This document shows positions 8,408 through 35,828 of a stretch of DNA of 64,000 bases, piece after piece; the first letter of the stretch is position 1, and the number at the start of each line of letters is the position of its first letter. The notes beneath the pieces were generated by a model. It worked only from the letters and a program-made list of their open reading frames with translations, did no database searches and was not told where the DNA came from. The translations under genes were made by a program, and so were the position numbers. This stretch comes from Micromonospora sp. Llam0 (GTDB lineage Bacteria; Actinomycetota; Actinomycetes; Mycobacteriales; Micromonosporaceae), in the NCBI RefSeq assembly GCF_003751085.1, contig NZ_RJJY01000002.1, positions 1,364,001 to 1,428,000 of the forward strand. Reading direction: 5' to 3'.

Positions 8408-10163
8408 ACCCGTCTTTCGCACATGCGGTTGGGTGGTCGTCGGTCATGGCCAGCGGGGTTGGGTGGGGTCGACGTGGAGTAGTCGCAGGAGTCGGGTTTG
8501 TAGAGGCCCGGGTGTGGGGATGGTGGCTGCTTCGTTCGGGGGCGCGGGGATGAGTCGGAGTTCGCCGAGTGCTTGCAGGATGAGCCGTCCGGTGGGCTTT
8601 CGTGGGCGGCGGTCGTTGATGTAGAAGCCACGTATCTCGGTGTCGGGGGCGAGGTTGCGGCGGACTTCGCGTTCGATGAGGCAGAAGATGAGCAGGGCCA
8701 GGCAGATCACGGTGATCAGGGCGGTGATCCGGCGGTTGTTGCGTAGGAAGATCGGTGCGACGGCGAGGGGGCCTTTGAACTCGCTGTAGCGGCGTTCGAC
8801 GGTGGGTTGGTCCTTGTAGCGCAGGAACACGTCGGTGGCGTCGATGTCGGCGGGCAGGTTGGTCAGCAGGGCGTACCAGCCGTCGGCGGCGGCTTCGGCG
8901 TCGAGGGCTGCCTGGTCGAAGGTCCAGGCGAACGTCGGTTTGCCGGTGTCGTCGGTGGTGATCGTGGTGTGCAGGTGTGCGCTGATGCGGCGGCGGCGGG
9001 CGATCGCGGTGGCTTTGGTGGTGACGGCCTCGATGGTGCGGTGGTGGCGGGTGCCGGCGGTACGGGTGAGGGTGTCCAGTTCGGTGCGGGCCTGGGCGAG
9101 TCTGAGCGCGCGGGCCTTGGCCTGGGCGGTGGCGTTGGCGGTGGAGTGCACCAGGATCCGCCGTAGGGTGTGTACCGGGTCCTTCTTGCGGGGGCCGGTC
9201 AGGTCCATGGTGTCTTCGTCGACCCGGTAGGTGCACCGTTCGGTGTGTGGTCTGCCCTCGTCGCGTTCGGCGACGTAGTCCACGATCGTGGCCCGGGACG
9301 GGTCGAGGCCGGCGAACAGCCCGTCGGGGACCCGGGACGCGGCCAGGGGCGCGATGAAGGTGACCTGCTCGGTGGTCATCGCGGTGACGTTGGGGTAGGA
9401 GATGAGTTTCGAGTCGCCGACCAGCAGGAAGTTGCGGGGTGTGGCCAGGGCTTGCAGAGCGCGCATGGTGTCGGTGACCTGGGCGATCTCGGCGGCGTTG
9501 CCGTCATAGGTCCGGCTGAGGACGGGGACGGCGCCGTCCGCGGTGACGGCGAGGCCGGCCTGGATCTGTTTGAGGTCGGTGCGCCGGTCTTTCGGGTGGC
9601 CGTAGGCAGGGGTGGGGTACTCGTCGTCGACGTGGTCGTATGCGCCGTACAGCGAGATCGAGGTCATGTCCCAGTGGCAGCGGGTGACGTCGATGCCGAA
9701 TGCCGTGATCGCGGTCGCGCCGATTGATCCGACGACCTGGTCGGCCTGATCGGCGAGGGCGTCCAGGGCCCGGCCCAGCCGGTCGTCGTTGAGCAGGTCG
9801 GGATCGATGTCGTAGACCTCTTCCACCGCCCACGCGTGGGCCCAGTCGGCCACGGCGACCATCGCCTTCGGACTGGTCAGCCGGTTCGCGATCAGCGCCT
9901 CGATGACCTGCCCGTGGCTGATGGAGGCGACCTCCCGTATCGGGCAGGCCCGGTCCACCACACCCGCGATGTCCAACCGGCGGGAGAAGTCCGCGATGAC
10001 CGGCAGCGACCCCAGCTGCTTCTCCACCCGACCCGTCGCGGCGACCCGCGTCCGAGGCCGCCGCGCCACCCGTCGAGGCCCACCAGATCTACTCATGGAT
10101 CAGCAACGAACCAGCCGCACGCCCGCAACGCAAGTCACTCAACCGCATGTGCGAAAGACGGGT
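8408..10163 (-). mobile_element. IS1634-family element, copy 1 (complete)
   Basis: The terminal inverted repeats are ACCCGTCTTTCGCACATGCG at 8408 and its complement ending at 10163. CTAG flanks both ends (8404-8407 and 10164-10167), consistent with a 4-bp target duplication. The left neighbour is the IS630 end; the right neighbour is the C-terminal half of a radical SAM gene. Copy 2 at 15082-16812 looks identical over the shared length. Confidence 0.85.
8444..10096 (-). CDS. IS1634-family transposase, copy 1
   Basis: This 550-aa DDE transposase of the IS4/IS1634 type appears intact. Visible family features are the first Asp region (AFGIDVTRCHWDMTSISLYG), the second Asp region (NFLLVGDSKLISYPN), and the YREK-like region (DQPTVERRYSEFKGPLAVAP) that supplies the Glu. 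It is nearly the full length of the element. The protein is identical to that of the second copy, so both copies are recent. Confidence 0.9.
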   Translation of the reverse strand: MSRSGGPRRVARRPRTRVAATGRVEKQLGSLPVIADFSRRLDIAGVVDRACPIREVASISHGQVIEALIANRLTSPKAMVAVADWAHAWAVEEVYDIDPDLLNDDRLGRALDALADQADQVVGSIGATAITAFGIDVTRCHWDMTSISLYGAYDHVDDEYPTPAYGHPKDRRTDLKQIQAGLAVTADGAVPVLSRTYDGNAAEIAQVTDTMRALQALATPRNFLLVGDSKLISYPNVTAMTTEQVTFIAPLAASRVPDGLFAGLDPSRATIVDYVAERDEGRPHTERCTYRVDEDTMDLTGPRKKDPVHTLRRILVHSTANATAQAKARALRLAQARTELDTLTRTAGTRHHRTIEAVTTKATAIARRRRISAHLHTTITTDDTGKPTFAWTFDQAALDAEAAADGWYALLTNLPADIDATDVFLRYKDQPTVERRYSEFKGPLAVAPIFLRNNRRITALITVICLALLIFCLIEREVRRNLAPDTEIRGFYINDRRPRKPTGRLILQALGELRLIPAPPNEAATIPTPGPLQTRLLRLLHVDPTQPRWP

Positions 10164-11345
10164 CTAGAGACGCCAACAAGGTCCGCGTCGACGGCACCCA
10201 CACCGCGTGGCCGAGGTTCGCCGGCAAATGGCCCATCTGCGCCGCGCCCGAGGCCCGCGCGCACACGCCCAGCTCATCGGCGGCGAGGTCAGTTTGCTGC
10301 CGCCCGACGACCACGCCGCCGCGCTACAGGTGATGCGCGAACACGGGCGCGAGCCGATGAGCATGACCCACGGCGACTTCGACTACCACTACTTGCGTAC
10401 CCTCGCGATCGGCCCGGGCGGTCGGCGCCGGCTACGCCGGCTGTCGTTCGCCGCCCACATCGACTCGCTGATGCGCGGCCGGCGCGGCGCCCCCCGACCT
10501 CGCACCGAGACCGAGCTTGCGCCGTTGCGCCGGCAGTTCGCCGACATGTTCCACCGGTTGCGCCGCGAGTACGGCGTGCGCGCCTACCTGGCCCACAACA
10601 TGACCGTCACCCACGCAACGTCGACCAGATCGCAGCGGTGATCGCCGAAACCCACACCATGGGCTACGCCATGATGTCTTTCCAGCCCGCCGCCGCCATT
10701 GGCGACGAACGCCGTTGGAAGGAGGACTACCGGTCGTTGACCGGCGATCAGGTGTGGGCTGAGATCGAACGCGGCGCCGGCACCAGACTGCCCTGGCGTG
10801 CCCTGCAGATGGGCGACGGACGCTGCAACCGCACCGCCTTCGGCTTCTTCCTCGGCGACCGGTGGATCCCACTGATCGACGACCAGCGTCCGGTCGACCT
10901 CGCCGCCCGCGACGCGTTCCTGCGCCACCTCGGTGGCGTCAACGTCGGCGGCACCCCGCCCCAGCTGCTGGCCGTCCGCCTACTGCGCGCCCTCGTTTCA
11001 CATCCCACCGCTACCTGGACCGGGCTTCGCTGGGCGGCTGGGCTGATCCGCCGTGCCGGTCTCCGCCCGTTGCTGACCCGTCGGGTCCGCCCGATGACGT
11101 TCGTGATGCACAGTTTCATTCCCGCCGATCAGGTCCGTCCGGCGTGGGCGCTGCTCGAGCAGGGCGCCCTCAGCAGCGATCCCGCCGTACGGGCAACCCA
11201 GGACCGGCTGCTGGCCTGCTCCTACACCATGGCCCACCCCGAGCGGGATCGGCTCGTCCCCGCCTGCGTGCAGCACGCCGTCCTCGACCCTGCGGAGAAC
11301 GACGCACTACGCCGGCTACTTCCCCTGCACGGGGTCGCCGGGAAG
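10164..11345 (+). pseudogene. C-terminal fragment of a radical SAM protein, cut off by IS1634
   Basis: Right after CTAG the codons read SRDANKVRVDGTHT. The frame is lost near 10205 and resumes as AEVRRQMAHLRRARGPRAHA. It shifts again near 10617 (MTVT to RNVDQIAAVIAETHTMGYAM) and continues with IGDERRWKEDYRSLTGDQVW. The matching N-terminal half, ending in the cysteine motif and YHS, lies on the opposite strand at 16813-17052 beside the other IS1634 copy. The gene is non-functional. The end of the fragment merges into a truncated recombinase gene. Confidence 0.75.
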
Positions 11346-24165: not shown

Positions 24166-24819
24166 TCATGGTGGAGGGGGGTCACCGGCGACCAGGCCAT
24201 CTTCACGCACTCGGTTGGCGAGGTCGAGTTTGGTGTAGGTCGGTCGGCCTACGGACCGGTACTTTTCCTTCACCCGTTCCAGGTAGTGCTTGGCCGTAGC
24301 AGGCCGAATGCTGGTGCGCCGTGCCGCAGAGTCCAACGTCATGCCGGATGCGTACGCAACCAGCAACCGCAGTTCCTGGTCGGACAGTCTCGGCTTGTTG
24401 GGCCGGCTGTCGTGGGCTATGGCGAAGGCCAGTTCGCTGGGAAACATCTGTTGGCCGCGATGGATGTCGCGGATCATCGCGGCCAGTTCGGCCAAGTCAT
24501 GATTTTTGGTCAGATACCCGGCGGCACCTGCGGCGTGGGTGGCCAGCATGTGCGCCGGATCGGCCATGACAGTGGCCACGAGCACCTTGGGGCCGGCCCG
24601 GATGATCCGGCGCACGTTGGTGGCCGGATCGGAATTGTCGGCCAGCATAAGATCGAGAACGACGACGTCGATGGTGCCCATGTCGCGTTGCATCAACTGA
24701 TCCACTGATTCGACGGTAGCCACCAGACGAAGATCAGGTGCACTGTCAACCCACGCGGTCAGGCCGGAAATCAACATACGATCGTCGTCCACGGCTGCGA
24801 TCGTGATCACTGCGGCCAC
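24166..24819 (-). CDS. LuxR-type response regulator
   Basis: This 217-aa protein has a receiver domain (acidic pocket Asp11-Asp13 in VDDDRM, phospho-acceptor Asp56 in DVVVLDLMLAD). A C-terminal LuxR-like helix-turn-helix follows (LVAYASGMTLDSAARRTSI and ATAKHYLERVKEKY). It overlaps the end of the histidine kinase gene upstream on the same strand. The pair sits beside the ACP/ketosynthase cluster and may control it; that link is inferred from position only. Confidence 0.85.
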   Translation of the reverse strand: MAAVITIAAVDDDRMLISGLTAWVDSAPDLRLVATVESVDQLMQRDMGTIDVVVLDLMLADNSDPATNVRRIIRAGPKVLVATVMADPAHMLATHAAGAAGYLTKNHDLAELAAMIRDIHRGQQMFPSELAFAIAHDSRPNKPRLSDQELRLLVAYASGMTLDSAARRTSIRPATAKHYLERVKEKYRSVGRPTYTKLDLANRVREDGLVAGDPPPP

Positions 24820-25946
24820 TTCAGCTCCACGCAGGTCCCATCGCCGGGGACGGAATGCACCGAGGCCGTTCCCCCCACTTCTCGCATTCTAGCTATGATC
24901 GAGGTTCGTATTCCAGTTCCAGGAGTTGTCTCATCGACGGGTTCGAAACCCACGCCACGATCGACGATGCGGACCACGACCGCACCGTCCTCCATGCCCG
25001 CGGTCAACCAGGCCTCGCCGGTGCGAGCGTGGCGGTGTGTGTTGTTGAGGGCCTCTCGGCAGGCCATCGCGATCGCGGTGACCGCTCGTCGATCTATAGA
25101 AGACGACAGCGGTGCGAGCAGCGGGTGCAGCCGTAGGCCGATGCCCGTGGCGTCCGCTGCCACCGACGCCAGCGCGGCTGGCAGGCTGTCGGACGCCACG
25201 GTGCCCCCTTGCATGATGGTCCGCAGATAGGTGGCGTCGCGGGCGGCCAAGGCTCGGACCTGGTCGGAGTTGGCATCGAGCCGGCCGCTAGCGATCGCGG
25301 TCAGCGTGGCCAGTGCCGTGTCGTGCACTACGCGCCGACTCTCCGGGGCATCCCACTGGGTCTCGCCAGCGTCTTCGCAGCGGCCGATGGTGTCGTCGGT
25401 GGCCAACAGCGTCCGGCGAGTCGCACCGGCCACCAGAGCGATGACGACGAGGGTTGCCGTGTGCGCCGCGACCTGAGGCACCGTGATGTCAACGGCGTCG
25501 GCAGGGTGAAGGGCGAGCAGTAGCGGGATGGTGACCAAGCTGGCGAGCGCAACCATGACAGCGCGGGTCGACAGTGCCCATCCGGCGACGATCGCCGCGC
25601 AGTGCAGGCTGCCATAGCTGAACGCCAGGTCCTCCCAGCCGCCGGCGAGCGCCAGCAGGCCGATGCCTGCGGCGAGGCCGACATCGAGCACGGCGAGGGG
25701 TTGCCGGAAGGCGGCATGCCGCCAGGCGTCCCATAGCAGGATGCATCCCCAAGCCGTAGTAAGGGCCACCGCGATGGACATGGATGTGCCGGGCCGAGCG
25801 GAGCCCTCGGCAAGCACCGTGGCCAGGCTGATCGCCCGGTGTACTCCGACTATCAGCATGACCAGCCGGAATATGCGCGGCATGGCATCGATGCTGGCCG
25901 TGACGTCGGCTGCCGGCCGCATCGGACGAGCAAGCAATGTGGACAT
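24807..25946 (-). CDS. Sensor histidine kinase (NarL/LuxR-partner type)
   Basis: ATG 25946 (MSTLLARPMRPAADV) has AAGGAG upstream; a more upstream ATG at 26048 is less likely. The protein is 379 aa, with five or six N-terminal membrane segments, a dimerisation helix with the likely phospho-acceptor His in RRVVHDTALATLTAI, and an HATPase domain (N-box REALNNTHRHAR, G-boxes DRGVGFEP and GTGIRTS). It has no large extracellular sensor domain, so it may sense a membrane signal. It overlaps the response regulator gene by 13 bases. Confidence 0.85.
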   Translation of the reverse strand: MSTLLARPMRPAADVTASIDAMPRIFRLVMLIVGVHRAISLATVLAEGSARPGTSMSIAVALTTAWGCILLWDAWRHAAFRQPLAVLDVGLAAGIGLLALAGGWEDLAFSYGSLHCAAIVAGWALSTRAVMVALASLVTIPLLLALHPADAVDITVPQVAAHTATLVVIALVAGATRRTLLATDDTIGRCEDAGETQWDAPESRRVVHDTALATLTAIASGRLDANSDQVRALAARDATYLRTIMQGGTVASDSLPAALASVAADATGIGLRLHPLLAPLSSSIDRRAVTAIAMACREALNNTHRHARTGEAWLTAGMEDGAVVVRIVDRGVGFEPVDETTPGTGIRTSIIARMREVGGTASVHSVPGDGTCVELKWPQ

Positions 25947-26176
25947 CTGCGATGACTCCTTGAAGCACGTTCTGCGGCGCCGAAGACCGCTGTCTACCGA
26001 GGAAAGTACGACCGACGACCGGAGCCGTATGTGGGCGGCATTACACAACGCGCACCTGATACCTCGCCGTCAGACGAATGTCAACGACGGTAATCGGCCG
26101 TCTACTGCCGGCCGCAGCGAATTTCTAGCGTGTCGGTGCAGGCGCACAGCGCCGATCCGAATCGAGGAGGTTTGCT

Positions 26177-26593
26177 ATGGCTGACGGTGGGATCACCGAT
26201 TACGTCGCGGTCCTGCGCCCCGCACTGGCCGAGGCGGTGGGACTCGAAGAGAGCGATATCGAGCCGTCGGCCACGATCCTCGGCGATCTGGGCGCGGAGT
26301 CGATTGACCTGTTGGATGTCCTGTTTCGAGTCGAGCGGGTGGTGGGTGTGAAGATCTCGGCGACCGAGATCGCCGACCTGCTGCAGGGTGACCTCAGCGA
26401 CGATGAGTTCGAAGGACCTGGCGGGATCGTGACCGCAGCCGGCCTGGACCAGTTGCAACGGGTGCTGCCGCAGATCGACAAGGCGGAGCTCGCCGGACGT
26501 CTGGTCGCCGACGACATCATGAACCTGTTCACGGTGGAGAACCTGGCGTACCTGGTGGCCCAGCGTGCGGCGATGGCAGCAGATGCCCGCTGA
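26177..26593 (+). CDS. Acyl carrier protein, long form (138 aa)
   Basis: The phosphopantetheine site is the Ser in LGDLGAESIDLLDVLFRVER (about residues 34-53). The protein is longer than a usual ACP (about 80 aa). An insert after residue 70 (LSDDEFEGPGGIVTAAGLDQ) precedes a C-terminal helix (FTVENLAYLVAQRA). The ribosome-binding site GAGGAGG precedes ATG 26177. It opens the biosynthetic cluster and is followed at once by its own holo-ACP synthase. It would carry the growing chain for the KS, KR and dehydratase proteins. Confidence 0.85.
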   Translation: MADGGITDYVAVLRPALAEAVGLEESDIEPSATILGDLGAESIDLLDVLFRVERVVGVKISATEIADLLQGDLSDDEFEGPGGIVTAAGLDQLQRVLPQIDKAELAGRLVADDIMNLFTVENLAYLVAQRAAMAADAR

Positions 26594-27002
26594 CGGCGCG
26601 AGCCCGGTTCCGCGCGTGCTGGTCGGCACCGATCTGGTGGCCATCGACCGGTTGGCGTCGATGCTGACCGCACAGCCGGATCTTGCCGGCGAGGTATTCA
26701 CCGAGCGCGAGTTGTCCTACTGCAGCGGCCGGCGTCGACGCCACGAGCATCTGGCGGCCCGGTTCGCCGCCAAAGAAGCGGTGTTCAAGGCGCTCGGCAC
26801 TGGCCTGGCCGGCGGGGTGGGCTGGCGTGATGTCGAGGTGGTCAACGCGGCCAGCGGTCGACCCAGGCTGCGCCTGGCCGGTGCGGCACGGTCGGTGGCG
26901 GGCACGGCAGGGGTCCGGTCGATGGAGATTTCGCTGTCGCACACCGCACACCTGGCCATCGCGTTCGCGGTGCTGGTATGCGACGGGGCGGTGGCGCCGT
27001 GA
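26583..27002 (+). CDS. Holo-acyl-carrier-protein synthase (AcpS-like)
   Basis: This 139-aa protein starts at ATG 26583, inside the end of the ACP gene. The family motifs VGTDLVAIDRL (residues 14-24) and RFAAKEAVFKALG (about 60-72) hold the Mg-binding Asp and Glu. It transfers 4'-phosphopantetheine from CoA to the ACP Ser. A dedicated synthase inside the cluster suggests that the long ACP is not served by the housekeeping enzyme. Confidence 0.9.
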   Translation: MPADGASPVPRVLVGTDLVAIDRLASMLTAQPDLAGEVFTERELSYCSGRRRRHEHLAARFAAKEAVFKALGTGLAGGVGWRDVEVVNAASGRPRLRLAGAARSVAGTAGVRSMEISLSHTAHLAIAFAVLVCDGAVAP

Positions 27003-27766
27003 CGCTCAAAGGCCAGGTGGCTCTGGTGACCGGCGCGTCGCGCGGCATCGGTCGCGCCACCGCTGTGCGGTTCGCGGCGCAGGGCGCCAGCGTCGCCGTG
27101 AACTACCGATCCCGTAATGACGAAGCCGCAGAGGCCGTCAAGCAGATCGAAGACCTCGGCGGTGCCGCGGTCGCCATCCAGGCGGACGTATCCGATCCGG
27201 ACCAGGCAGCCGCCCTGGTCGAGCAGACCAGACGGGAACTGGGCGGGCTCCACTACCTGATCAACAATGCCGGGACCTCCCGGGACAGCCTCATCTTCGA
27301 TCTCGACGTCGACGAGCTGTGGCAGGTGATGCGAGTCAACCTCGGCGGGGTCGTCAACATGACCCAGGCGGCGATGAGCCATCTCATGTCACAGCGGGAC
27401 GGCTCCATCGTGAACGTGTCGTCGATGATGGCACAGCGCGGCTGGACCGGCGAATCGGCGTACGCGGCATCGAAAGGCGCGATAAACGCGTTCACCCTGG
27501 CCAGTGCGGTTGAGCTGGCCCGGTTCAAGGTCAGGGTCAACGCGGTGCTGCCTGGCTTCACCCGTACCGAGCTGGTCGGTCCACGCCTCGACGGCGAGAA
27601 GGGCAGGGCGCTCGCGCGCCAGATCCCGCTGCGCGGCTTCGGCGACGTGGAGCAGATCGCACAGGTCATCTCCTACGTGGCGCAGTCGCCGTACATGACC
27701 GGTTCGCTGGTCCCGGCCGATGGTGGCTTCGGCGCCCAGCTCGGCATCGGCCGGATCGGCGGATGA
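26999..27766 (+). CDS. 3-oxoacyl-ACP reductase (FabG-like)
   Basis: This 255-aa short-chain dehydrogenase starts at GTG 26999 (GTGA overlap with AcpS). It has the NADP motif TGASRGIG (about residues 12-19), the NNAG motif, and the catalytic Ser, Tyr and Lys (NVSSMMAQRG..., YAASKGA). It would reduce the beta-keto group after each condensation. The length and motifs are those of an active KR. Confidence 0.9.
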   Translation: MTLKGQVALVTGASRGIGRATAVRFAAQGASVAVNYRSRNDEAAEAVKQIEDLGGAAVAIQADVSDPDQAAALVEQTRRELGGLHYLINNAGTSRDSLIFDLDVDELWQVMRVNLGGVVNMTQAAMSHLMSQRDGSIVNVSSMMAQRGWTGESAYAASKGAINAFTLASAVELARFKVRVNAVLPGFTRTELVGPRLDGEKGRALARQIPLRGFGDVEQIAQVISYVAQSPYMTGSLVPADGGFGAQLGIGRIGG

Positions 27767-27770
27767 CACC

Positions 27771-28226
27771 ATGCGTTTCCAGCTGATCGACCGGATCGAG
27801 GCCTGGCAGCCGGGCTGCGGGATCACCGCGCGGAAGGTGACCGCGGCCGCGGAGGAGTTCTGGTACGCCGACTCGGCCGGCTGGATCGTGATGCCGCCCG
27901 AGCTCGTGCTGGAGGTTGTCTGCCAGGCAGCCACCTGGCTGATCATGCTGAGCAGCGGGTTCGAGCGCCGCGCTCTGCTGCTGGCGGTCGGCGAGATGAC
28001 CGTCCACGGCTGCGTCGAGCCCGGCGACGTGCTCACCGTGACCGCAACCGTCGCATCCAGCATCGCCGACGCCATCGTCGTTGACGGTCGGGTGGAGGTG
28101 GAGGGCCGGACCGTCCTGGAAGCCTCCGGGATCATGTGCGCCCTGCGCGAGGCGGAAACGTTGCAAGCCAGGCATGACGTCGAGCGGATGGCTCGCTGCC
28201 TGCTACGTACGGAGGTGCGGGGATGA
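27771..28226 (+). CDS. Hotdog dehydratase-like subunit A (Glu kept, His lost)
   Basis: This 151-aa hotdog-fold protein aligns without gaps to the FabZ active-site region. Where FabZ has the catalytic His there is Asp34 (FWYADSAGWIVMPPELVLEV); the catalytic Glu is kept (Glu48, fourteen residues later as in FabZ). FabZ active sites are made from the His of one subunit and the Glu of its neighbour, so this protein can only supply the Glu. It probably pairs with the second hotdog protein at 29455. The start ATG 27771 lies four bases after the KR stop. Confidence 0.8.
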   Translation: MRFQLIDRIEAWQPGCGITARKVTAAAEEFWYADSAGWIVMPPELVLEVVCQAATWLIMLSSGFERRALLLAVGEMTVHGCVEPGDVLTVTATVASSIADAIVVDGRVEVEGRTVLEASGIMCALREAETLQARHDVERMARCLLRTEVRG

Positions 28227-29458
28227 GGCGTGTGGTAGTCACCGGCATCGGGGCGGTCACGCCGTTGGGTAACGATGCCGAGGCGACGTGGCGTGCTCTC
28301 GCCGAAGGCCGCAGCGGCATAGGGCCGCTGACCACGTTCGACACCTCCGGCTTTCCGGTACGGATCGGTGGACAGGTACATGACTTCCCGCCACCGAAGC
28401 GCCTTCCCGAGGGCCTGAACTGGCGGCACCTGTCCAGGGCGGGCCAGTTCGGCGTCGTCGCCGCCGCCGAGGCGATCCGTGCCTCGGGCGTGCGCCCCGA
28501 GTCGGTCAGCGATCGCCGCGGCGTGGCCATGGGGGCCAGCATGGGTCGACCCGATCTGCAGATGCTGGTCGACATAGGGCACAGCGGGAAGATCGAGCGG
28601 CAGCCGCCGTCGCGCACCCTGGCCGGTAACCAGAATTTGCCCTGCGCCGCGATGACCCGGATGCTGAACGCGAGCGGGCCGCTGATCGGGACCAGCACCG
28701 CCTGCTCCGGCTCGGGCCACGCCATCGGCGAGGCGATGCGGGTAATCCAGGATGGTGACGCCGACCTGATGCTGGCCGGCGGCTACGACTCGCTGACCAG
28801 TTGGCTCGACGTGCTGGGGTTCAGCTTGCTCGGGGCGCTGGCCAGCGGAGGCGAAGACGAGCCGCAGCGTGCGTCCCGGCCCTTCGACGCCCGCCGATCC
28901 GGATTCGTGCTCGGCGAGGGCGCGGTCGTGTTCATGCTGGAGGAGTTGGCGCACGCCCGAGCCCGTGGCGCGGAAATCCTCGCGGAGTTGCTCGGCTACG
29001 GCTCCACCCTCAACGCCTGGCGCATCACCGACTCGCCACCGGACGGCTCGGGCGCGATCGAGGCCATGCAGGCGGCCCTGGCCGACGCCGACCTCCACGC
29101 TGATGCCGTCGACTATGTCGCCGCGCACGGCACCAGCACGCCCGGCAACGACGTGTCCGAGACCAGGGCGATCAAGAAGGTGTTCGGCAACCACGCGTAC
29201 CGGCTCTTGATCAGCTCACCGAAGTCGATGTCCGGGCACCTGACCGCCGCCGCGGCCGGGCTGAACCTGCTTGCCGCGATCGGCGGAATCCGGCACGGCA
29301 TCGTCGCGCCGACGATCAATCTGGACCGCCCCGGCCACGGGCTCGACCTGGACTACGTGCCCCACCGCGCCCGCCCCGCTCGGATCCGCACGGCCATGGT
29401 CAACGCTTTTGCGTTCGGTGGCAGCAACACGGTTCTCGTCGTGGGAGCGCAGCGATGA
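28223..29458 (+). CDS. Beta-ketoacyl-ACP synthase (FabF-like, complete triad)
   Basis: This 411-aa condensing enzyme has nucleophile Cys161 (GTSTACSGSGHAIG), His302 (AAHGTSTPGND) and His339 (MSGHLTAAA), the full KAS II triad. It is coupled to the upstream dehydratase by ATGA and to the next hotdog gene by another four-base overlap. It would extend the chain, perhaps together with the Cys-less homologue at 29808. Confidence 0.9.
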   Translation: MRRVVVTGIGAVTPLGNDAEATWRALAEGRSGIGPLTTFDTSGFPVRIGGQVHDFPPPKRLPEGLNWRHLSRAGQFGVVAAAEAIRASGVRPESVSDRRGVAMGASMGRPDLQMLVDIGHSGKIERQPPSRTLAGNQNLPCAAMTRMLNASGPLIGTSTACSGSGHAIGEAMRVIQDGDADLMLAGGYDSLTSWLDVLGFSLLGALASGGEDEPQRASRPFDARRSGFVLGEGAVVFMLEELAHARARGAEILAELLGYGSTLNAWRITDSPPDGSGAIEAMQAALADADLHADAVDYVAAHGTSTPGNDVSETRAIKKVFGNHAYRLLISSPKSMSGHLTAAAAGLNLLAAIGGIRHGIVAPTINLDRPGHGLDLDYVPHRARPARIRTAMVNAFAFGGSNTVLVVGAQR

Positions 29459-29811
29459 CACCGCTGGACCGGGTGCTGGAGATCCAGCCGGGCAGACGCG
29501 GGGTGGCCATCATGAACATCCCGGCGACGCTGTCGCTGTTCGACAGCCACTTTCCCCGATTTCCGGTACTGCCCGGAGTGCTGCTGCTGCAAGCCATGGC
29601 TCGGCTGTCGTCGCGCGTTGTCGGCGACGGCTGGCGGTTGCGTGCGGCGCACCGCATCCAGTTCAGGCGTTTCGTTCAACCGGGCGACCAGGTGGTGATC
29701 ACCGCCGAGGTCACCGCGGACACCGATGAGGTGATCGAGTTGAGAGCCAAGGCCCAGATCGCGGACAGCACGGTAGCGACCGCCCGCCGGCTGGTTCTGG
29801 AGCGGGTATGA
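29455..29811 (+). CDS. Hotdog dehydratase-like subunit B (His kept, Glu changed to Gln)
   Basis: This 118-aa protein carries the FabZ signature FDSHFPRFPVLPGVLLLQAM. The catalytic His is present (His32), but the catalytic Glu is Gln46. This mirrors subunit A, so a heterodimer would have one complete His/Glu site. It is shorter than FabZ (about 150 aa). It lies between two KS genes with four-base overlaps on both sides, consistent with tight stoichiometry. Confidence 0.8.
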   Translation: MTPLDRVLEIQPGRRGVAIMNIPATLSLFDSHFPRFPVLPGVLLLQAMARLSSRVVGDGWRLRAAHRIQFRRFVQPGDQVVITAEVTADTDEVIELRAKAQIADSTVATARRLVLERV

Positions 29812-31082
29812 GCAGGCGGGTGGTGATCACGGGGATCGGGCTGCTCACCGGCCTTGGCGAGGGCGCCGCAGCCAACTGGGACGCCCTGCTGGCCGGACGC
29901 AGTGCCATCGCCCGGTTGACCGGCTACGACCCGTCGCCGCTGCACAGCCAGCTCGGCGCGGAACTCGCCGGGTTCGACCCGCTGCGGTTCGCCTCCCGCA
30001 AGGCGCTGCGCATGCTCAACCGTGGCGACCAGCTCGGGCTGGCCGGGGCGACGCTGGCCGTCGCCGACGCAGGACTCGACACCGGCACCGAACTCGGCCA
30101 CCGCACCGGGCTGTTCCTCGGCGGCGGCAAGGAGATCTCCCGCCTCGACGACCTGATCGCCAACCTGTCGGCCATTCGCGCCGAGGGCGGCACCGCCGAC
30201 CTGCTCAAGCTGGGCCGCACCGCCTCCTCGGTGCTGCCGCCCCTGTTCTTCGTCGAGGGGCTGCAGCCGGCCGCGGTGTTCCATGTCTCGGAGAAGTTCG
30301 GCATCCGCGGCCCCAACTGCTTTTTCGCCGGTACCGCCGACAGCGGCGCCCGCGCCATCGGGCGGGCGATGCGCGCCATCCGGCGTGGCGAGGCCGACCG
30401 CGCCATCGCCGGCGGCTACGACGATGCCAGCGGCTGGTGGTCGATGTCGAAGATGGACGGTCTCGGGGTGCTCTGCACCGACAACGACGCCGGGTCCGCC
30501 GCATTCCGGCCGTTCGACAGCCAGCGAAGTGGCTCGGTGCTCGGCGAGGGCGCCGCCATCCTGGTGCTGGAAGAACGGAACACCGCACTGGCCCGGGGCG
30601 TGCCCTGCTACGCCGAGCTGATCGGCTTCGGGGAGGGCAACGACTGCCGGCCCGCACCCAGCCCCGATCCACAGGGACGCGGCGTGGCTGCCGCGATGCG
30701 CCGGGCGCTCGACGACAGCCGACTCGAACCCGGCGCCCTGTCCTATGTCGCCGCACACGGCAGCGCCACCTGGGCCGGCGACATCAGCGAGGCACGCGCC
30801 ATCCGGCACATCCTGGGCCCGGCCCAGGTGCCGGTCAGCACCGTGAAGCCGCAGACCGGCCACCTTGTCGGCGGCGCCGGCGCACTCAACGTCGCCGTCG
30901 CCGCGCTGGCACTTCGACACGGGGCGGCACCGGCGACGCTGAACCTCGACGATCCCGACCCCGGATGCGACCTCGACCACATCCGGCGCGAGCCGATGTC
31001 GGCCCGGCTACATCATGCTCTCGCGCTGGCCCGCGGCTTCGAAGGCCAGGCCACTGCGCTCGCCCTCACCACCGCGCACTGA
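29808..31082 (+). CDS. KS-like protein without active Cys (chain-length-factor-like)
   Basis: This 424-aa KAS II homologue has Ala177 where the nucleophile Cys should be (GPNCFFAGTADSGARAIG); the two His are kept (His317, His352). Cys-less partners of this kind act as chain-length factors in type II polyketide synthases, or as decarboxylating KSs. It most likely pairs with the complete KS at 28223. A second Cys in the GPNC position is not aligned with the catalytic one. Confidence 0.85.
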   Translation: MSRRVVITGIGLLTGLGEGAAANWDALLAGRSAIARLTGYDPSPLHSQLGAELAGFDPLRFASRKALRMLNRGDQLGLAGATLAVADAGLDTGTELGHRTGLFLGGGKEISRLDDLIANLSAIRAEGGTADLLKLGRTASSVLPPLFFVEGLQPAAVFHVSEKFGIRGPNCFFAGTADSGARAIGRAMRAIRRGEADRAIAGGYDDASGWWSMSKMDGLGVLCTDNDAGSAAFRPFDSQRSGSVLGEGAAILVLEERNTALARGVPCYAELIGFGEGNDCRPAPSPDPQGRGVAAAMRRALDDSRLEPGALSYVAAHGSATWAGDISEARAIRHILGPAQVPVSTVKPQTGHLVGGAGALNVAVAALALRHGAAPATLNLDDPDPGCDLDHIRREPMSARLHHALALARGFEGQATALALTTAH

Positions 31083-31095
31083 AAGGCAGCCGCAG

Positions 31096-33282
31096 ATGCA
31101 ACGAACAGTGGTCACCAGCATGGGTGCGGTCACCGCCCACGGTGCGGGCGTGCCCCACCTGTGGCATGGGCTGCTGCAGGGCCACGTCGCTATCCGACCG
31201 GTGTCGAGCCTCGACCTGACCGGCCACCGCACCGCGCTAGGCGGCGAAGTCGACTGGCCGCGGCGGGCCGGCCGCGACACCGCCCTCGACTACGCGCTCG
31301 CCGCCGCGCACGAGGCGATGGCGGACACCGGCATCACTGTCGCACCACACCGATGGGGTGTCGTACTGGGCACCTGCAACGCCGGCTTGCGCAGCGCCGA
31401 GCACGCCTGGCAGGCCGAACAGGCCGGGCGTCAACCCGACTGGCGCCACTACCTGGCGATTCAGCCACAGATCCTCGCCGAAGCCCTGGCCGCCGAGTTC
31501 GGGCTCCAGGGACCGGTCTTGTCGGTGAACACCGCCTGCGCCTCCGCCGCGCACGCCATCGGCCACGCCCTGGACATGATCAGGTCCGATCAGGCGGACG
31601 CGATGCTGGTCGGCGGCACCGACGCGTTCACCAGGACAGTGTTCGCCGGATTCAACAGCCTCGAATCGCTGTCCCCCAAGCCGGCCGCCCCATACTCCAA
31701 GCAACGCCAGGGCCTGAGCCTGGGCGAGGGCGCCGGCATGCTGGTGCTCGCCAAGCTGGCCGTCGCTCAGGCTGCCGGCGCTTCCATCCTGGCTGAAGTG
31801 CTCGGCTACGGGCTGTCCGCGGACGGCTACCATCCCACCGCCCCCCACCCGCAGGGCGAGGGCGCAGCCCGAGCCATCACCGCCGCGCTGGCCGACGCCG
31901 GTGTCGCCGCCGGGGCCGTGGACTACATCAACGGTCACGGCACCGGCACCCTCAAGAACGATGCCGCCGAAAGCAACGCGGTACGCGCCGCCCTCGGCAC
32001 CCATGCCGAGAAAACGCCGTTGAGCAGCACCAAGTCGATGGTCGGTCACCTGCTCGGCGCGGCCGGAGCGGTAGAGGCAATCGCCACCGTGCTCGCCGTG
32101 CAGCATCAGACCGCGCCACCGACGGCCAACTTCGCCGACCCCGATCCCGGTTGCGGGCTTGACCCGGTGCCCGGCGCCGCCCGCCAGATGCCCATCGAGG
32201 TAGCGTTGTCCAACAACTTCGCCTTCGCCGGCGCCAATGCCACCGTCGCCTTCGGCGCCTACTTTCCCGAGGCCGACCCGGCCGAACGTGCCGCGCCCGA
32301 GGACGTCGTCGTCACCGGCATCGGCGTGCTCGATCGCGGCGACGATCTGCACGTGGACCTCGACCTGGACGGCGTCCTGCCGGCCCGCCAGCGTCGCCGC
32401 CTGGACCGGCTCAGTCTCCTCGCCATCGCCGCCGGCAGCCAGGCCCTGGCCGACGCCGGCCTGCGGGTCGACGCCGACAGCGGCGACCGGATCGGCGTGG
32501 TCCTCGGCTCCGGCCTCGGGCCGGTCGAGAGCATCGAAAGGTTCGCCATTCCGGTACTGGCCGAGGGGCCGGGCGCCGCGAATCCGGGCCTCTTCCCCAA
32601 CACGGTGCACAACGCCGCCGCCGGTCAGGTGGCGATGCATCTGGGTACCCGCGGACCGACCTCCACCATCGCCGCGTCCCACGCCGCCGGCACGGCCGCC
32701 CTGTGCGTGGCCCACGACCTGCTGCGAGCCGGGCGAGCCGACGCCCTGCTGTGCGTCGGCGTCGACACGCCATCCGAGCTGACCAGACGGGTGTACGCAC
32801 ATCTGCCGCTGCTCAAGCGGCTGCGGCCGGCTGAAGGCGGTGTGGCGCTGGTGCTGGAACGCCGCTCGGTCGCGCTGGCACGCGGGGCCCGCATCCTGGC
32901 CACCGTCGCCGGACGCGCGATCACCTCGGACGCCATCGGCATCGGACGGTGGGATCGCGACGGAGCCGGGATCGAGCGGGCCATGCGCTTCGCCCTGGCC
33001 CAGGCTGCAATACCGGCTCGCGATCTGTGCGGGGTGTGGACCAACACCATCGGAGTGGCCGCGGTCGACCGTCCCGAGGACCGGGCGATCCGGCGGGTGA
33101 TCGGCGCTGCCGGCGTGCCGATCCACCGGCCCAGCCGGCGACGGGCTCAACCGATTGGCGTCCGTGCGCTGGAAGCCGTCGCGCTCGCCCTGCAAGCCGA
33201 CCAGGGCCGCTTCGTGCTGATCAACAGCTCCTCGCTCGGCGGCACACACGTTTCCCTGATTTTGAAGAGGACCGAGAAGTGA
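31096..33282 (+). CDS. Fused ketosynthase and KS-like (chain-length-factor-like) protein
   Basis: This 728-aa protein is two KS folds in one chain. The first (residues 1 to about 390) has Cys148 (NTACASAAHAIG), His281 (NGHGTGT) and His318 (MVGHLLGAAG). The second (from about residue 400, VVVTGIGVLDRGDD) has His529 in place of the Cys (STIAASHAAGTAALC) and lacks the HGT His. A fused KS-CLF is unusual, since these are normally separate subunits. The start ATG 31096 follows 13 bases after the previous stop. Confidence 0.85.
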   Translation: MQRTVVTSMGAVTAHGAGVPHLWHGLLQGHVAIRPVSSLDLTGHRTALGGEVDWPRRAGRDTALDYALAAAHEAMADTGITVAPHRWGVVLGTCNAGLRSAEHAWQAEQAGRQPDWRHYLAIQPQILAEALAAEFGLQGPVLSVNTACASAAHAIGHALDMIRSDQADAMLVGGTDAFTRTVFAGFNSLESLSPKPAAPYSKQRQGLSLGEGAGMLVLAKLAVAQAAGASILAEVLGYGLSADGYHPTAPHPQGEGAARAITAALADAGVAAGAVDYINGHGTGTLKNDAAESNAVRAALGTHAEKTPLSSTKSMVGHLLGAAGAVEAIATVLAVQHQTAPPTANFADPDPGCGLDPVPGAARQMPIEVALSNNFAFAGANATVAFGAYFPEADPAERAAPEDVVVTGIGVLDRGDDLHVDLDLDGVLPARQRRRLDRLSLLAIAAGSQALADAGLRVDADSGDRIGVVLGSGLGPVESIERFAIPVLAEGPGAANPGLFPNTVHNAAAGQVAMHLGTRGPTSTIAASHAAGTAALCVAHDLLRAGRADALLCVGVDTPSELTRRVYAHLPLLKRLRPAEGGVALVLERRSVALARGARILATVAGRAITSDAIGIGRWDRDGAGIERAMRFALAQAAIPARDLCGVWTNTIGVAAVDRPEDRAIRRVIGAAGVPIHRPSRRRAQPIGVRALEAVALALQADQGRFVLINSSSLGGTHVSLILKRTEK

Positions 33283-34385
33283 GCGCCAGGATCCTGGCCA
33301 CCGGAAGCTATCTGCCGGGTGAGCCCATTGACAACGAGCAGTTGGAGAAACTGTGCGGCCCGCTGCCAGCCGACGTGCTCGCCGGACTCGGCGTAGCGCG
33401 GCGGCACTGGCTCGTGGATCCCGCCACCGGCGAGCACATCATCAGCAACAGCCGGATGGCTGAAGCTGCCGCACGAGTCGCGCTTGCCAAGGCTGGTCTG
33501 GCACCGCAGGACGTCGATCTGATCGTGTTGTCGACGGCCAGCCCAGAATATCATCTGCCGACTGCGGCCAGCTACGTCCAGGAGCATCTCGGCCTGCAGC
33601 GCTGTGCCACGATCGAGCTGCGGGCCGGCTGCGTCGGTGCGGTGCAGGCCCTCGACATCGCCCGTCGGCAGTTGGCCGACGGGACCTTCCGGACCGCGTT
33701 GGTGATCGGAGCCGAGGCGATCTCGCCGCTGCTCGTGCCCATGTATCAGGGGCTGGACCCGTTGGGCGTGCGGATGCGAGACCGGATGAGCCTGTACAAC
33801 TTCGGTGACGGTGCCGCCGCCGTCGTGTTACGAGCCGACCCGGCCCGCGGCACCGGCCCGGAGCGGGCCCCGGGCCTGGGTGCCTGCGTCTTCGGCACCG
33901 CCTGCCTGGGCGGCGGACGCAAGCCGGGGATGCGGGTCGTCGGCGGTGGCACCGACCTGCCGTACTCCCGGCAGTTGGCGCGCAAGCGGCTGATGGACAT
34001 CCAGCTTGACGCCTCAGGCGTGGCCGGGCTGGGCCCGCAGGTGTTCGTGACCGCGCTGCGGGACATGCTTGACCGTACAGGCTGGCAGTTATCGGACATC
34101 GACGCGTTCGTGCTGCCCGAGGGCAACGCCGAATACTTTAGCAGCGAGTTGGCCGCCGCCGGGATGTCTCGGCAGGATCACGAGCTGGTCCAGCGCAGGG
34201 TGGTCGAGAACCTCGCCGATGTGGCCGCGACCGGATCACCGGCGGTCCTGCTGGCCCTCGACGCGGGTGTGGCACAGGGACGGATCCGTCCTGGGGATAC
34301 CGTACTGCTGCTAGCCATCGAGGCCAGCCGCTACGTCTATGCTGGCCTGTCCCTGCGCTGGGGTGAGCCGATGGTGGCCAGGTAG
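33279..34385 (+). CDS. KAS III-like acyl-ACP/acyl-CoA condensing or transfer enzyme
   Basis: This 368-aa thiolase-fold protein starts at GTG 33279 (GTGA overlap). Cys118 is the likely nucleophile (ELRAGCVGAVQALDIARR). The His-Asn pair of FabH is not preserved: the usual HQAN region reads PEGNAEYF, and the second Asn is absent. It may start the chain from an unusual acyl unit or transfer the finished chain to an acceptor, as some KAS III-like acyltransferases do. It is the last gene of the ACP-KS operon. Confidence 0.8.
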   Translation: MSARILATGSYLPGEPIDNEQLEKLCGPLPADVLAGLGVARRHWLVDPATGEHIISNSRMAEAAARVALAKAGLAPQDVDLIVLSTASPEYHLPTAASYVQEHLGLQRCATIELRAGCVGAVQALDIARRQLADGTFRTALVIGAEAISPLLVPMYQGLDPLGVRMRDRMSLYNFGDGAAAVVLRADPARGTGPERAPGLGACVFGTACLGGGRKPGMRVVGGGTDLPYSRQLARKRLMDIQLDASGVAGLGPQVFVTALRDMLDRTGWQLSDIDAFVLPEGNAEYFSSELAAAGMSRQDHELVQRRVVENLADVAATGSPAVLLALDAGVAQGRIRPGDTVLLLAIEASRYVYAGLSLRWGEPMVAR

Positions 34386-34389
34386 CCGG

Positions 34390-34818
34390 TCAGCGACCGG
34401 CACCGAGCCGCCGCACCGCGGCGATCGAATCCAGCGGCCGCAACATCACCGTCAACGCGCAGATCCGGCCCGCACGGTCGAGCTCGATGATGTCGACGCC
34501 GTTCAGCTTCGCTCCGCGAACGCCCACAGCGTCGAACAGCAGGACATGCGTCTCGGCCGCACGGCGATCGGCGCCGCCCGCGCTCGGGCCAACATGCCCG
34601 ACATAGCGCAGCAACTTGAAGTTGGACATCGCGGACCACAGCACCATGCTGATCGCCCGTACCCCCTGAACCGGCTTGGCCGCTCGGGGGCTGTTGAACC
34701 GCACGTCCTCGGCGAACAGCCCGTCGAGCGCATCGAAGTCGGCGTCCTGCATGGCGCGACGGAAGCGCGCCACCGTGGTGTCCAGGTGAGCCCGGGTTTC
34801 TCGCGGAGGCAGGTTCAT
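34390..34818 (-). CDS. SnoaL-like / NTF2-fold protein
   Basis: This 142-aa protein has the start of an NTF2-like cone fold (ARFRRAMQDADFDALDGLFA then EDVRFNSP). Family members include polyketide cyclases, ketosteroid isomerase-like enzymes and binding proteins. It lies convergent to the KS operon, four bases from the KAS III stop, and divergent from the sulfotransferase. It may act on the cluster product; no catalytic residue assignment is possible. Confidence 0.7.
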   Translation of the reverse strand: MNLPPRETRAHLDTTVARFRRAMQDADFDALDGLFAEDVRFNSPRAAKPVQGVRAISMVLWSAMSNFKLLRYVGHVGPSAGGADRRAAETHVLLFDAVGVRGAKLNGVDIIELDRAGRICALTVMLRPLDSIAAVRRLGAGR

Positions 34819-34952: not shown

Positions 34953-35828
34953 ATGATCGTCCGCTACCGGACCTCACTGGAAGACAACAGCCGCTGGCAG
35001 AACCTGCGTTTCCGCGACGGCGACATCGTCATCAGCACGCCGGCCAAGACCGGCACCACCTGGGTACAGATGATCTGCGCCCTGCTCATCTTCCAGTCGG
35101 CCGATCTGCCGGCACCGCTGGCCGCGCTGTCACCGTGGTTGGACACGCGGCTACGGCCGCCCGGTGCGGTGTGCGATCACCTTGAGGCCCAACGCCATCG
35201 ACGGTTCATCAAGACGCACACGCCACTCGACGGCATACCGTTCGACCACCGGGTCACCTATGTCGTGGTGGGTCGCGACCCCCGGGATGTGGCCGTGTCG
35301 CTGTACCACCACCGCAACAACCTCAAACCCTCCATTTTCGGGGCCCCGAGTGCCCGGCGCCAATCGATCCCGCCCAGCTTCCCGCAAAGCCTGCTGTCCT
35401 GGCTGAACAACGACGACGCGCCGCAGCACAACCTGGTCACGCTGAAGGGAATGGTCTGGCATCTGGCGGACGCCTGGTCACGCCGTCACCAGCCCAACGT
35501 GGCGCTGGTGCACTACCACGACCTGCGCCGCGACCTTCCCGGGCAGATGAGATGGCTGGCCGGCCTGCTCGGCATCGATGTCGCGGAAACCATGTGGCCG
35601 ATATTGGTCAACGCGGCCACTTTCGAACGGATGCGGCAGCGCTCCGCCTTACTCGCGCCGGACGCCGACATCCTCGACGACGCCGGGCGGTTCTTCCGCA
35701 GCGGACCATCCGGCGGCTGGCGAACGTGGCTTACCGAACAAGACCTGGACCGGTATGACAGGCGCCTCGCCGAACTGGCCGATCCCGAACTCATCGGCTG
35801 GCTGCACGCGGAAGTGGCGCCTTCCTGA
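34953..35828 (+). CDS. PAPS-dependent sulfotransferase
   Basis: This 291-aa cytosolic sulfotransferase has the 5'-phosphosulfate-binding loop ISTPAKTGTTWVQM (about residues 27-40), the 3'-phosphate-binding motif VVGRDPRDVAVSLYHH, and the C-terminal RSGPSGGWRTWL (similar to the RKG-GDWK motif). It moves sulfate from PAPS to an alcohol or amine. Placed after the KS cluster, it may tailor its product; alternatively it is a neighbour by chance. GGAGGA upstream supports ATG 34953. Confidence 0.85.
   Translation: MIVRYRTSLEDNSRWQNLRFRDGDIVISTPAKTGTTWVQMICALLIFQSADLPAPLAALSPWLDTRLRPPGAVCDHLEAQRHRRFIKTHTPLDGIPFDHRVTYVVVGRDPRDVAVSLYHHRNNLKPSIFGAPSARRQSIPPSFPQSLLSWLNNDDAPQHNLVTLKGMVWHLADAWSRRHQPNVALVHYHDLRRDLPGQMRWLAGLLGIDVAETMWPILVNAATFERMRQRSALLAPDADILDDAGRFFRSGPSGGWRTWLTEQDLDRYDRRLAELADPELIGWLHAEVAPS

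Follow-up and report, generated by a model that had tools for sequence, protein, structure and literature searches.

A predicted split-site dehydratase pair of FabZ-like proteins in a type II polyketide synthase-like operon of Micromonospora

The DNA analysed here, referred to as the window, is a stretch of 64,000 nucleotides from the genome of Micromonospora sp. Llam0 (contig NZ_RJJY01000002.1, positions 1,364,001 to 1,428,000). It contains an operon (Table 1) that is an actinobacterial type II polyketide synthase (PKS)/fatty acid synthase (FAS)-like cluster with two pairs of ketosynthase (KS) and chain-length factor (CLF). Two FabZ-like hotdog proteins, here named A and B, are encoded in it on either side of the ketosynthase KS1, and the genes for A, KS1 and B each terminate in an ATGA that overlaps the start of the following gene. 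A scan of the nine operon proteins revealed no clear separate enoyl reductase and no dehydratase candidate other than A and B; the product may be a polyene-type or partly reduced chain. The active-site Cys of KS1 was present in 42 of the 43 homologous loci examined (L004-L050), the remaining one being a gap, and CLF1 has no Cys in the 39 loci examined from the same set, one of them a gap. Relatives of the KS2-CLF2 fusion occur in most of the fetched loci. Upstream, on the opposite strand, lie a response regulator and a histidine-kinase-like gene (24166-26048, -), and SnoaL-like and sulfotransferase genes follow downstream (34390-34818, -; 34953-35828, +).

Table 1. Genes of the operon in the window, and fused open frames at other actinobacterial loci (positions within each locus)
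Feature	Position	Strand	Remarks
Acyl carrier protein (ACP)	26177..26593	+	
AcpS-like phosphopantetheinyl transferase	26565..27002	+	
FabG-like ketoreductase	26978..27766	+	also matches the related PF13561, as SDR proteins do
A, FabZ-like hotdog protein	27771..28226	+	151 aa; D34 (His position), E48 (Glu position); putative Glu donor, subunit A
KS1, FabF-like ketosynthase	28223..29458	+	active Cys; between A and B, 4-base overlap on each side
B, FabZ-like hotdog protein	29455..29811	+	118 aa; H32 (His position), Q46 (Glu position); putative His donor, subunit B
CLF1, ketosynthase-like, chain-length-factor type	29808..31082	+	Ala replaces Cys
KS2-CLF2 fusion	31096..33282	+	728 aa; KS2 with active Cys; the CLF2 half lacks the Cys and both His
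KASIII-like ketosynthase	33279..34385	+	start GTG
Fused open frame, L098	1495-2409	-	B'-like half (His), then A'-like half (Glu, no His)
Fused open frame, L101	370-1917	+	B'-like half (His), then A'-like half (Glu, no His)
Fused open frame, L103	1537-3270	-	B'-like half (His), then A'-like half (Glu, no His)
Fused open frame, L108	1447-3018	-	B'-like half (His), then A'-like half (Glu, no His)

In the active site of FabZ, the His of one subunit pairs with the Glu of the other. Translation and alignment to the solved FabZ 4h4g place Asp34 and Glu48 of A, and His32 and Gln46 of B, on the FabZ His and Glu positions, confirming the residues named in the first-pass annotation of this DNA. The 14-residue spacing that it had likened to FabZ is also that of the dyads H54/E68 of E. 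coli FabZ (PMC9842644) and His133/Glu147 of P. falciparum FabZ (PMC2698920), as given in the available parts of the two papers. Both monomers are modelled by AlphaFold2 with the FabZ fold (pLDDT 91.5 for A and 88.6 for B), and in the 8.9-Mb genome the FabA/FabZ family PF07977 matches A and B only. The two proteins share the fold of FabZ homodimers and align with them over the whole domain, but whereas each FabZ subunit carries the complete dyad (13 of 13 FabZ-type rows), A and B have one of its residues each.

This division of the dyad is reciprocally conserved among homologues. The Glu column of A holds Glu in 74/74 aligned A proteins, and the His column of the same proteins is occupied by D 34, T 15, G 13, A 4, N 2, V 2, S 1 and E 1, with a gap in 2. 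The B alignment, which covers 120 of 169 matches and includes P0002 and P0076 (both being the window's B), has His in all 121 aligned proteins, 11 of them ordinary FabZ, and at its Glu column, again among the matches listed, E 57 (11 of these FabZ), G 27, D 19, Q 8, A 7, R 2 and H 1. Weighted column entropies were computed over 71 of the 74 A proteins (at least 140 aa) and over 107 B proteins (at least 110 aa, excluding P0076 and the 11 FabZ rows). They are 0 at both E48 of A and H32 of B, as against 2.29 bits at D34 (rank 117 of 151 positions, median 1.37) and 2.25 bits at Q46 (rank 77 of 118 positions, median 1.57). Since entropy is nil at the first two positions and above the median at the other two, the residue pattern is more than chance. 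Asp34 of A and Gln46 of B are themselves unconserved. The rest of each half-site is also kept, namely C51 (nearly so), Q52 and W56 in A and HFP..P..PGV in B. A FastTree phylogeny of B, built with the Glu column left out and with the 11 FabZ rows absent from the entropy set added back, requires no fewer than 15 switches between Glu and non-Glu states and 24 among residue types.

A reading of A as merely inactive is disfavoured by the invariance of Glu48. Such constraint on the Glu of A makes sense only if a His comes in trans, B being the His donor encoded beside it, and B could dispense with its own Glu since A provides one. At the His column of A, Asp is the most frequent residue (34/74), and the YbaW hotdog subfamily is described as having Asp at the FabZ His position (PMC2698920, available text), which might suggest that Asp34 stands in for the catalytic His, making A an Asp/Glu enzyme in its own right. 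That column is one of the more variable ones, however, and the length of the A loop also varies among homologues; on these grounds Asp34 was rejected as a substitute base, and we find the reading barely credible.

The first-pass annotation had asked whether the two changes co-occur in homologous pairs, and had named another His or Glu in the active site of homologues as evidence against its proposal. The loss of His from A and the invariance of its Glu are borne out, with a His lying exactly 14 residues before the Glu only sporadically (2 of the 61 A proteins taken from loci, and 6 of 72 homologues). On the side of B the correspondence is partial, as the full His/Glu dyad is kept in 46 of the 110 B homologues among the matches listed. 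These 46 favour a reading in which a B homodimer is the enzyme, acting through His32 alone or with another residue, while A has no catalytic part and serves as a partner or scaffold for the ACP, the ketosynthase or the substrate. So does the tolerance of non-acidic residues at E68 of E. coli FabZ, where saturation editing recovered H54 as Q, V or Y and E68 as A, D, F, L or V, so that neither residue may be strictly needed (PMC9842644). In the available text of that study Gln is absent from the recovered E68 list, and its authors consider the recoveries difficult to reconcile with an essential function of the two residues and ascribe them partly to incomplete depletion. The mycobacterial FAS II dehydratase HadAB offers a further parallel, one subunit being described as carrying both catalytic residues while the other binds substrate (PMC4491049, available text). 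A B homodimer would, however, leave unexplained both the invariant Glu48 of A with its surrounding motif and the frequent loss of Glu from B, in which His is never lost, and we judge it unlikely to be the enzyme. The earlier expectation that neither protein alone should dehydrate may hold at most for members like the window's pair, because so many B homologues retain the full dyad; those that do could work as homodimers.

The distribution of the two genes points to a functional pair. Across 394 genomes of the class, the 13 with strong matches to A are also the 13 with strong matches to B, under cut-offs that were chosen after gaps in the E-values were visible (strong A at most 3.5e-55, next 1.3e-13; strong B at most 6.9e-39, next 8.9e-29). 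The paired-locus listing comprises 56 pairs, three of which are the window itself (L001, L002, L087), and genomes may repeat in it, so counts were made on L004-L050. B was found in 45 of these 47 actinobacterial A loci, and all 45 paired loci have both the Glu of A and the His of B (45/45 each), with E 23, D 15, G 5 and Q 2 at the Glu column of B. One of the two loci lacking B (L022) is on a 3.4-kb contig that breaks off near the expected position of B. The other, from a Streptomyces metagenome contig (L033), carries A at 644-1411 and KS1 in two frames; B was not detected on its 9.4 kb, and its state possibly reflects decay or misassembly.

Gene order is A-KS1-B in 41 of the 47 loci. In four Nocardia loci (L015, L021, L029, L040; 8001 to about 8880) A directly adjoins B, without KS1 and CLF1; relatives of KS2-CLF2 and KASIII lie there on the opposite strand. 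Counting ATGA alone, as GTGA and TTGA can arise by chance, gene ends overlap in this way in 33/47 cases for A, 28/43 for KS1, 26/44 for B and 17/39 for CLF1, against a background of 5/41 for FabG and 7/38 for KS2-CLF2, and translation may be coupled across these overlaps. In five actinobacterial genomes, B-profile matches of about 1e-27 to 1e-29 occur without a strong A (genomes G055, G215, G275, G307 and G368; loci L104, L105, L107 and L127-L131), and the three that were read (L104, L105, L107) have His/Glu and look like lone FabZ-type proteins. An A homologue is present in 13 Streptomyces plasmid records, and in Streptomyces sp. NBC_00335 (L134) the core cluster is carried by a linear plasmid of 297 kb, in the neighbourhood of FabD, AMP-binding, FAD-enzyme and efflux genes.

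Aryl polyene synthases provide a precedent for a split-dyad dehydratase, and A/B would be an actinobacterial counterpart of it. ApeI:ApeP is described as a heterodimeric dehydratase with a single active site (PMC8041823, available text), and the solved structure 6QSR, titled 'The Dehydratase Heterocomplex ApeI:P from Xenorhabdus doucetiae', has ApeI as chain A and ApeP as chain B. The earlier analogy with this system proved apt, in that the polarity of His and Glu is the same: among the rows available (5 ApeP and 5 ApeI out of 7 each), ApeP lacks the His and keeps the Glu in 5/5 and ApeI keeps the His in 5/5, and the E. coli proteins show these same states. Both pairs are also encoded in operons of the same kind, with KS-CLF, ketoreductase and ACP. 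They differ in that the Glu position is occupied by Asp in 5/5 ApeI rows, as in E. coli, whereas this column drifts freely in B, and in that several kb separate apeI from apeP whereas A and B flank one ketosynthase. Profile comparisons gave a mixed picture. The ApeP model PF22817 has no match to A at E up to 0.1, with E. coli ApeP scoring 141.2 bits. On the ApeI model PF22818, B (P0002) reaches 18.1 bits against a cut-off of 28.5, and yet this model is given as a precomputed match for the window's P0076 and its homologues. ApeI (6qsr_A) is not among the best 50 rows for B, which is uninformative either way.

The comparison with HadAB that the first-pass annotation had also drawn holds in part. 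HadAB, too, is a heterodimeric hotdog dehydratase with one active site, but its dyad is not split, HadB carrying both catalytic residues in a hydratase-2 motif, according to the available text of PMC4491049. At the FabZ positions no such arrangement was found in the window's pair, since A lacks the His and B an acidic residue. AmcE, a cispentacin decarboxylase, is likewise a FabZ-like hotdog protein with a conserved His, from a type II PKS-like cluster; it was first taken for a dehydratase, and no partner is described for it in the available text of PMC10698177. This raises the alternative that A:B has a composite site with another chemistry, such as decarboxylation, hydration or isomerisation. 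B does match the cispentacin decarboxylase model NF058663, yet weakly, A and B scoring 18.9 and 51.3 bits, far under the cut-off of 140, and FabZ models score B higher (71.5 and 68.4 bits). As the operon combines KS-CLF and FabG, with A and B as its sole dehydratase candidates in the scan described above, a different chemistry appears very unlikely.

Related pairs were detected at other actinobacterial loci (L097-L111), which may be highly reducing type II PKS clusters. Here a protein A', with Glu and no His, accompanies a protein B' with His and either Glu or Asp, so that the polarity is that of A and B. The A'/B' genes differ from A/B in being adjacent or fused and not flanking a ketosynthase, and B' keeps an acidic residue (E 36 and D 8 in the fusions). 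A search with L098 as query gave 228 matches from 8000 candidates scored, and 44 of the 120 matches listed were single chains of 250-345 aa; in 44/44 of these the first half has the His and the second half the Glu, and in none of the 44 does the second half have a His 14 residues before its Glu. The four fused open frames of Table 1 are, on their residue pattern, predicted natural single-chain split-site dehydratases. In a 92-row tree (137 columns; 34 of 89 inner branches open), one branch with support 89 has A and A' together on the same side, and one with support 87 does so for B, B' and ApeI. ApeP fell apart from A, and a single clade of A, A' and ApeP was not recovered, though it is not rejected either (p-AU 0.355). 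The quick search behind this tree was not exhaustive, and a better tree was obtained with B and B' constrained to group than without constraint, so that the quick tree is not the best one.

Planctomycete-type clusters (L051-L079; e.g. L051:7866-8513 and 9763-10356) have two FabZ-like genes each. Read on the B profile, 27 loci with both copies combine one copy with His/Gln (26) or His/His (L077) with another that has His/Glu (27), and in four loci that were inspected the copies are separated by FabG and ACP and followed by two ketosynthases. Judged by these residues, the arrangement would be a third kind of unequal FabZ pair.

Taken together, these data make it very probable that A and B form a heterodimeric FabZ-type 3-hydroxyacyl-ACP dehydratase with one composite site, His32 of B plus Glu48 of A. 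B would contribute the loop HFPxxPVLPGV with His32, and A the helix motif ExxCQ around Glu48, the two residues meeting across the dimer interface to make one working site, while the pseudo-symmetric site, built from the A loop around Asp34 and Gln46 of B, would be dead and free to drift. The heterodimer would then dehydrate ACP-bound 3-hydroxy intermediates delivered by the operon's KS-CLF and FabG. The proposal of one full and one dead site was already made in the first-pass annotation, and it gains support from reciprocal conservation, same-genome co-occurrence, gene order and overlaps, from fusions of related pairs with the same polarity, and from the solved ApeI:ApeP complex. Points against the composite site are the L033 contig without detectable B, the few A proteins with a His at or near the FabZ spacing, the lack of a PF22817 match for A, and the chemistry described for AmcE in the available text of PMC10698177. 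That heteromery is obligate in the window's organism seems likely.

In a literature search whose matches were mostly judged by their listing, subscription papers lying outside its scope, we recognised no report of this A/B pair, and the available text of PMC12141560 and PMC13311259 holds nothing on it. Where databases name homologues of A and B, they annotate each singly, mostly as 3-hydroxyacyl-ACP dehydratase, and reciprocal conservation provides a simple sequence rule by which split-site dehydratases can be spotted. Expressing A or B alone could fail, because neither carries a full dyad here. It is possible, although we hold it less likely than not, that the splitting of the dyad between paralogues is a ratchet that evolution has entered repeatedly, with ApeI/ApeP and the actinobacterial pairs A/B and A'/B' as instances and the planctomycete Gln-for-Glu pairs as an incipient one. 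One copy would lose its His, the partner's then dispensable Glu would be lost repeatedly, and the freed second site may take a new role, for example in docking the ACP or the ketosynthase whose gene lies between those of the pair. The states found at the Glu position of B (Glu, Gly, Asp, Gln, Ala, Arg) form a natural series on which to test if Glu is required on just one of the subunits; the tolerance described for E. coli FabZ in the available text of PMC9842644 makes this question more pointed.
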